Origin: Ascidia mentula
Lineage: Eukaryota > Chordata > Ascidiacea > Phlebobranchia > Ascidiidae
NCBI GenBank assembly: GCA_947561715.1
Contig: OX387202.1
Span: 11,049,001-11,113,000, forward strand
Length of the DNA stretch: 64,000 nucleotides
Direction: 5' to 3'
The translations under genes were made by a program, and so were the position numbers. The notes under the pieces are model-generated. The model searched no databases. It had not been told where the DNA came from and worked only from the letters and a program-made list of their open reading frames with translations. Below, in pieces: positions 34,475-35,499 of this stretch (its first letter is position 1; every line of letters begins with the position of its first letter).

Positions 34475-34735
34475 AATTTCCGAAACTAAAAAGCAAAAGG
34501 TATACGAGTTAATCGCAGATATGCAGGAGCGTGGTGTAATTACCCATTCTGATTCGCCTTGGTCCAGTCCCATTGTACTGGTGCGCGAAAAGGATGGCGG
34601 TACGAGATTTTGCGTTGACTATTGCGCCCTGAACGATTGCACAAAAAGTGTAGCATTCCTCTTTCGCGAGTTGACGACAGCATTGATCAACTGTCGGGGT
34701 GTCGCTGCTTTTTGACACTTGATTTAAATTAAGGG
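34475..34735 (+). pseudogene. Ty3/gypsy reverse transcriptase fragment, fossil
   Basis: The peptide contains GVITHSDSPWSSPIVLVREK and GGTRFCVDYCALND, the classic N-terminal part of gypsy-type reverse transcriptase. It stops near the position where the catalytic palm motif begins. No LTRs, gag or integrase are recognisable nearby, so it is an isolated remnant. Confidence 0.85.
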
Positions 34736-34977
34736 TAACTCATCACTGGTGTAACGTGCTTTTTCTGCGGATCGGCGGCGCTACACGCTACACAGCAGTT
34801 TTTTGGCCTTTAGCCAAAACGCGTCCCACTTCTCCTAGGTAGCCGAGCCCGCGGAACACAACAGACACATGTATTCGATACAGGAACGACCGGCACAACA
34901 ACGCGCCAAAAATGGAACGGTTTCAAACTGTTTTTAGTCCGATCAGTCAGCAGGCAAAATTTCCAAATTTCACACAG

Positions 34978-35009
34978 CTTATTCAAATAGAATCTTATTC
35001 AAATAGAAT
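34978..35009 (-). other. Perfect tandem dimer of the Ciona-type spliced leader
   Basis: On the minus strand, ATTCTATTTGAATAAG is present at 35009-34994 and again at 34993-34978 with no spacer. The sequence matches, from memory, the Ciona trans-spliced leader exon exactly. It is followed by CTGTGTGAAATTTGG rather than a GT donor, so it is not an SL RNA gene. The likeliest reading is the 5' end of a trans-spliced mRNA that was copied back into the genome and acquired a second leader. The downstream sequence (34740-34977 on this strand) shows no recognised protein. Confidence 0.75.
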
Positions 35010-35499
35010 CCTTAGGTTCAAAAACACATTACCAAGCACTAACAACACCAGAAGCCTAACACGCGGTCTGCCCGCGCAGAGCTACTGCGCAGCCTTTGTT
35101 AAGTAAATGCCAAACATAGAAAGCATAACAAAAGCAGTAACGAAAAGAACGAAATTTTGGTTTGGAAATCTACAACTGGTTTACCTAAATGTTGATGTAC
35201 TTGTTAAAGCCACATTTCCTCCACAAATACGCCTTCGCTGCAGTTAACTATTTCCTTGATGGTAAAAAAGCTGTGATGCTTCCCTTTTCAAATGCCAAAT
35301 TGAAAATTTTCAAATTGAAAATTTTTGTTCAAAGGATAACACAATAATTGATATTTCTAAATCCCGCAAAAACATTCGCTATAAAAGTGCCTGATACAAG
35401 TCCCCCGTATATCTACACTCGCAGCATTTAGATTCAGATTGTTTTGCTAAATAAATATCAAATATTTCCGGTATTAGTTTACGCAGGTAAGGTATACAT

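Follow-up and report, generated by a model that had tools for sequence, protein, structure and literature searches.

The window, i.e., the whole 64,000-nucleotide stretch of Ascidia mentula DNA analyzed here, carries two exact, directly abutting copies of ATTCTATTTGAATAAG on its minus strand, and this pair raises the question of how a spliced leader (SL) came to stand twice, in register, in genomic DNA. The initial annotation took the pair for the front of an mRNA retrocopy derived from a spliced parent gene, whose body would be the downstream DNA at 34740–34977, and noted that CTGTGTG follows the second copy. The coordinates of the dimer, its sequence, and the letters after it agree with that description. 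The origin appears to be a different one: the dimer is probably a tandem repeat inside a Pao/BEL-type LTR, into which the leader may have been written after trans-splicing, with slippage thereafter.

The native leader and its genomic copies

A window-wide search allowing up to two mismatches returned no leader match besides the two copies of the dimer (0.10 expected from shuffles). The exact 32-mer has a single occurrence in the 195.8-Mb genome, at this site (reversed control, 0), and the dimer is the sole perfect abutting pair. A chance origin is excluded by the shuffles and by the controls for the 16-mer and the 32-mer, both of which gave 0.

The 16-mer itself has 2157 exact matches in the genome (control, 0), 1671 of which continue with GTAAGC; the 100 of these that were listed all lie on one contig, in arrays with a spacing of 718–720 bp. 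Together, these observations identify the 16-mer as the native leader, a point on which the initial annotation had made its reading depend, and the SL-GTAAGC array copies are SL RNA genes. According to PMC7986045, the SL of Ciona intestinalis is the identical 16-mer. Gene arrays with a 719–720-bp unit (L075 and L076) lie on contig C1, around 15.25–15.29 Mb. A second leader copy, of the ATTCTGTTT type with the variant ATTCTGTTTGAATAAG, is present in each of two array units examined.

Since the dimer is followed by CTGTGTG, without a GTAAGC body, and array copies read SL-GTAAGC, an SL RNA gene or a gene-array fragment is ruled out, as the initial annotation had held. That annotation had also proposed a genome search for the 16-mer by its next letters, which shows that leader copies outside the SL-GTAAGC form are indeed common (486 of the 2157 matches): in 241 the next letter is A, C, or T, 146 have GT and then C, G, or T, and the remaining 99, by subtraction, have other G-words. 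As a practical warning, about 22% of exact SL matches therefore lie outside the gene form.

A solo LTR with an internal leader block

A DNA search with the dimer and its surroundings (461-bp query; 40 of 168 candidates scored) gave at least 69 matches. Among these, ten, including the window, span most of the query, 30 cover only about its last 175 bp, and the rest cover only a stretch near its start. On the minus strand, the repeat in the window starts with TGTAGAT and ends with CGTTACA, i.e., it has TG...CA bounds, and the short target duplication ACTGG stands at both sides; accordingly, it is a solo LTR (Table 1), and it contains no pol itself. The dimer begins at LTR base 166. The nine other copies of this family, referred to as family A, are near-full or partial and show 82–93% identity among the matches listed. 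Both end motifs are present in eight of the ten family-A copies, the other two being truncated, and 5-bp duplications flank five of these eight; of the three that lack one, L045 and L046 are joined to internal sequence, where none is expected. The solo LTR was inserted beside an open stretch on the plus strand (34506–34649), which by eye resembles what we take to be a Ty3/gypsy reverse-transcriptase block; a Pfam search with these 48 aa gave no family at E up to 0.1.

Table 1. Features of the dimer and of the LTR that holds it.
Feature	Position	Strand	Basis
Target duplication, low-coordinate copy (ACTGG)	34745–34749		Same 5 bp at both LTR sides
Solo LTR, 425 bp, Pao/BEL-related family A	34750–35174	−	Boundaries, 5-bp duplications, sister copies
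Second (3′) spliced-leader copy, then CTGTGTG	34978–34993	−	Exact 16-mer
First (5′) spliced-leader copy	34994–35009	−	Exact 16-mer
Target duplication, high-coordinate copy (ACTGG)	35175–35179		Same 5 bp at both LTR sides

This setting bears directly on the retrocopy of a trans-spliced cellular mRNA. The repeat extends upstream of the leaders (35010–35174), which therefore do not mark the 5′ edge of the insertion, and most of what had been read as the downstream DNA of an insert is the second portion of an LTR. Although single-SL relics with unrelated upstream flanks exist elsewhere in the genome, here the leaders lie inside a solo LTR that has an LTR-type target duplication of its own, and multiple sister LTRs conserve both sides of the leader. 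The finding of these nine sisters led us to drop the retrocopied-mRNA reading, which we regard as extremely improbable. A relict-SL retrogene of a cellular mRNA is rejected likewise, since the SL is not a 5′ boundary and the LTR continues on both sides of the dimer.

The affiliation of family A is derived from a sister family, family B. In one family-B element (L072), two 570-bp LTRs, 99.1% identical, enclose a 1548-aa open frame in which Pfam detected Peptidase_A17 (2e-41), Integrase_H2C2, and DUF5641, with RVT_1 below the curated cut-off; these domains place family B in Pao/BEL. The two families resemble each other at both ends of the LTR and differ around the leader, which both carry. By eye, three family-A copies (L046, L048, and L049) continue into a leader and gag start shared with family B, and the end of the family-B pol stands before L045. 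A Pao-type pol lies between two LTRs in family B, and these junctions suggest that a similar arrangement may hold for family A.

The family-B copies examined mostly read SL-GTTTTAG, some read SL-GATGTTAG, and L026 and L027 read SL-CAAAAC. An LTR might itself encode an SL mimic at the 5′ end of its RNA, selected so that the mRNA looks trans-spliced. Such a mimic is consistent with the exact host SL in most examined copies of several LTR families and with the GTTTTAG after the SL in six family-B copies (L050, L052, L053, L054, L064, and L067), a possible 5′ splice site. However, the SL does not stand out by its conservation within LTR B: it is intact in 89% of 19 copies, one of which (L064) was cut too long in this test, vs. 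76% as the median, and higher scores are reached by 88 of 564 16-nt windows. With these 19 copies and 564 windows, exceptional conservation as a sign of renewal is unsupported, and an SL only somewhat above its surroundings gives no pointer to strong selection. Varying unit numbers and one-base linkers, described below, would also be unexpected for a selected leader, and we consider a mimic quite unlikely.

Within family A, the leader block varies in place. Among the matches listed, the nine relatives of the window LTR carry between one and three leader units at this position: SL-25mer-SL was found in five of the ten copies, 25mer-SL in two, a single SL in two, and SL-SL in one, that of the window. 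The SL-derived 25-mer (25 nt) is composed of ATTCTATTTGAATAA plus TTGTGTTTAG; one three-unit copy has an extra G, and several have point changes. In the flanks, the closest listed relatives of the window copy are L042 (96.9% identity), L044 (96.3%), and L043 (96.1%), all with three units, and FastTree placed L043 beside it with a support of 0.88, with L042 mis-cut in the script for both comparisons. Most parsimoniously, the window copy would have lost the 25-nt middle unit of an SL-25mer-SL array in one step, the three-unit ancestor being a parsimony reconstruction from ten copies with modest support.

Leaders in other repeat families

Tandem leaders are not confined to family A. Genome-wide, abutting leader pairs with up to three mismatches gave 23 matches at 21 loci (control, 0), and pairs with a one-base G linker gave 35 matches at 30 loci at the same threshold (control, 0). 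The one-base-linked matches include two perfect G-linked three-unit arrays and one five-unit array; the longest array seen (L115) has five units with single-G linkers and a 17-base period. Exact leader pairs 0–30 bases apart yielded 10 matches at 8 loci. Most linked copies examined belong to family J, whose LTR end motifs are common to families A and B. In families J and C and in repeat family G, the SL lies between different immediate flanks.

Family C contains one leader unit (L032), two (most copies examined), or three (L078 and L079). The latter two are the flanking copies of one element, 99.8% identical, with three leaders each, so that this array most likely predates the insertion. Three pairs of family-C copies lie about 4.5 kb apart, with pair identities of 99.8%, 96.5%, and 99.7%. 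Because Pfam gave no family for a 454-aa open frame beside family C, its designation as a putative LTR element comes from the three copy pairs and their identity. In repeat family G, the same flanks enclose SL alone (L109 and L110) or SL-C-SL (L116), and L111 has its upstream SL border 14 bases away with an unchanged downstream border. Of 100 listed SL-GT(C/G/T) sites, 41 occur in same-strand pairs 3–9 kb apart, with 28 same-strand pairs vs. 1 opposite-strand pair, as paired LTRs would produce; eight of the 28 (six sites) come from a single cluster that mostly repeats every 3.9 kb and may be a tandem array. Two further repeat families (L001–L003 and L004–L006; alignments of 2.1–3.0 kb) carry an SL followed by GTG near base 1501.

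Such arrays could also arise if a second leader were added in register during retrotransposition, by renewed trans-splicing or by a template switch to an SL-capped RNA, as the initial annotation had suggested. The recurrence of in-register abutting pairs across repeat families points in this direction, as does family C, in which the 3′ unit is degenerate and a unit 5′ of it perfect, and in which one element has three units in both flanking copies. Moreover, TTAG directly precedes the first leader in L080 and L091, and AG directly precedes the leader in L047, a single-SL family-A copy. In the other family-A copies and in the examined copies of B, C, and G, however, AG directly before the first SL is absent, and slippage across a one-base homology is made possible by the 35 one-base-linked matches and by the G that stands both before and after many SLs. 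The window copy is explained more simply by a three-unit array that lost one unit, and we hold in-register addition to be rather unlikely as the source of the dimer.

A different arrangement was observed for leader relics whose next base is A, C, or T. Of 47 distinct SL relics of this kind, 32 have a CTGATGATGC-like motif (up to two changes, within 45 bases), vs. 296 of 20,000 random stretches. This motif, which resembles a hammerhead-ribozyme core, stands shortly after the SL and is usually followed by GAAA, with a covarying stem I. In the 27 of 32 relics scored, among which related copies are not independent, the bases before the motif pair with those after GAAA at 120 of 135 positions (permuted mean, 108.6; reached by 0 of 2000 permutations). 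An Rfam search of 19 loci returned no hammerhead at E up to 1, with sub-threshold miRNA and bacterial small-RNA families only, so that the label of putative ribozyme derives from the motif and the pairing. The relics of this type are L010–L015, L019, L020, L022, L029, L031, L033–L039, L093–L098, L100–L104, L107, L108, and L112, and L035, L036, L038, and L112 are palindromic around the SL. Their differing upstream flanks indicate that the SL is the edge of the insert. The hammerhead-like relics seem to form a second class of retroposed trans-spliced RNA, one with a single leader.

Origin of the LTR leaders and comparison with known systems

In the reading we favor, in which the dimer is a repeat within a Pao/BEL-type LTR, the genomic RNA of such elements would have been trans-spliced and would thus have begun with the SL. 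Reverse transcription would then carry the SL copy into the LTR, perhaps close to the U3/R junction, with both LTRs inheriting it. Tandem units may later be gained or lost as leader units slip or as strand transfer between them is misaligned, and in the window copy the loss of the 25-nt middle unit would leave two SLs exactly abutting. The loci examined included no SL-less parental LTR bearing an AG acceptor where the leader joins.

An extra G before the SL would fit a reverse transcriptase that copies the cap. Such a G precedes 118 of the 241 copies not followed by G. Of these 241, 51 were examined (50 loci, in list order with few skipped), and 28 have G at −1; after merging similar upstream flanks, G occurs at −1 in 26 of 47 distinct flanks, vs. 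an 18.7% background (p = 2e-8). Most of the excess lies in the hammerhead-type relics (21 of 32), and among the remaining distinct flanks 5 of 15 have G.

Extending this reading, the host SL may, in several LTR families, be part of the R region, with a fresh SL rewritten in each cycle via first-strand transfer, occasionally in tandem; the LTR would then record trans-splicing while the SL serves strand transfer. We put this forward tentatively, as a possibility that is still doubtful. What is observed is that the leader is part of retrotransposon LTRs and that tandem arrays are found repeatedly, in more than one family. Should the element RNA be trans-spliced, these LTRs would join two processes usually studied separately and would serve as records of the passage of a leader through reverse transcription.

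Leaders have been associated with transposable elements in other animals. In passages of PMC12582326, flatworm leaders are found on mobile elements, primarily at LTR and LINE loci, and the same origin is suggested; the association is like that in the present case, but the flatworm leaders are partial and mentioned as a filter, whereas those described here are full, present in both LTRs, and often in tandem. In Hydra, the SL was found on about 30% of transposon Iso-Seq reads (PMC12220107), which supports the RNA step, although this is an RNA observation and the passages concerned describe no leader written into an LTR. The spliced mRNA of the LTR element Cer1 of C. elegans can carry SL1, which likewise links an LTR element with a spliced leader; according to the same passages (PMC3315495), its full-length 8-kb RNA is apparently not trans-spliced at that site, so that a leader would not enter the LTR that way.

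The relict leaders of dinoflagellates (PMC6050394 and PMC12014239) resemble the present case in that genomic relics mark retroposition, but they belong to retrogenes of cellular mRNAs, whereas the leaders here lie in LTRs. In the literature surveyed by titles and abstract openings, no tunicate element is described as having a spliced leader within its LTR. Relative to these sources, full leaders standing in tandem inside both LTRs, and their occurrence in a tunicate, appear to be new.
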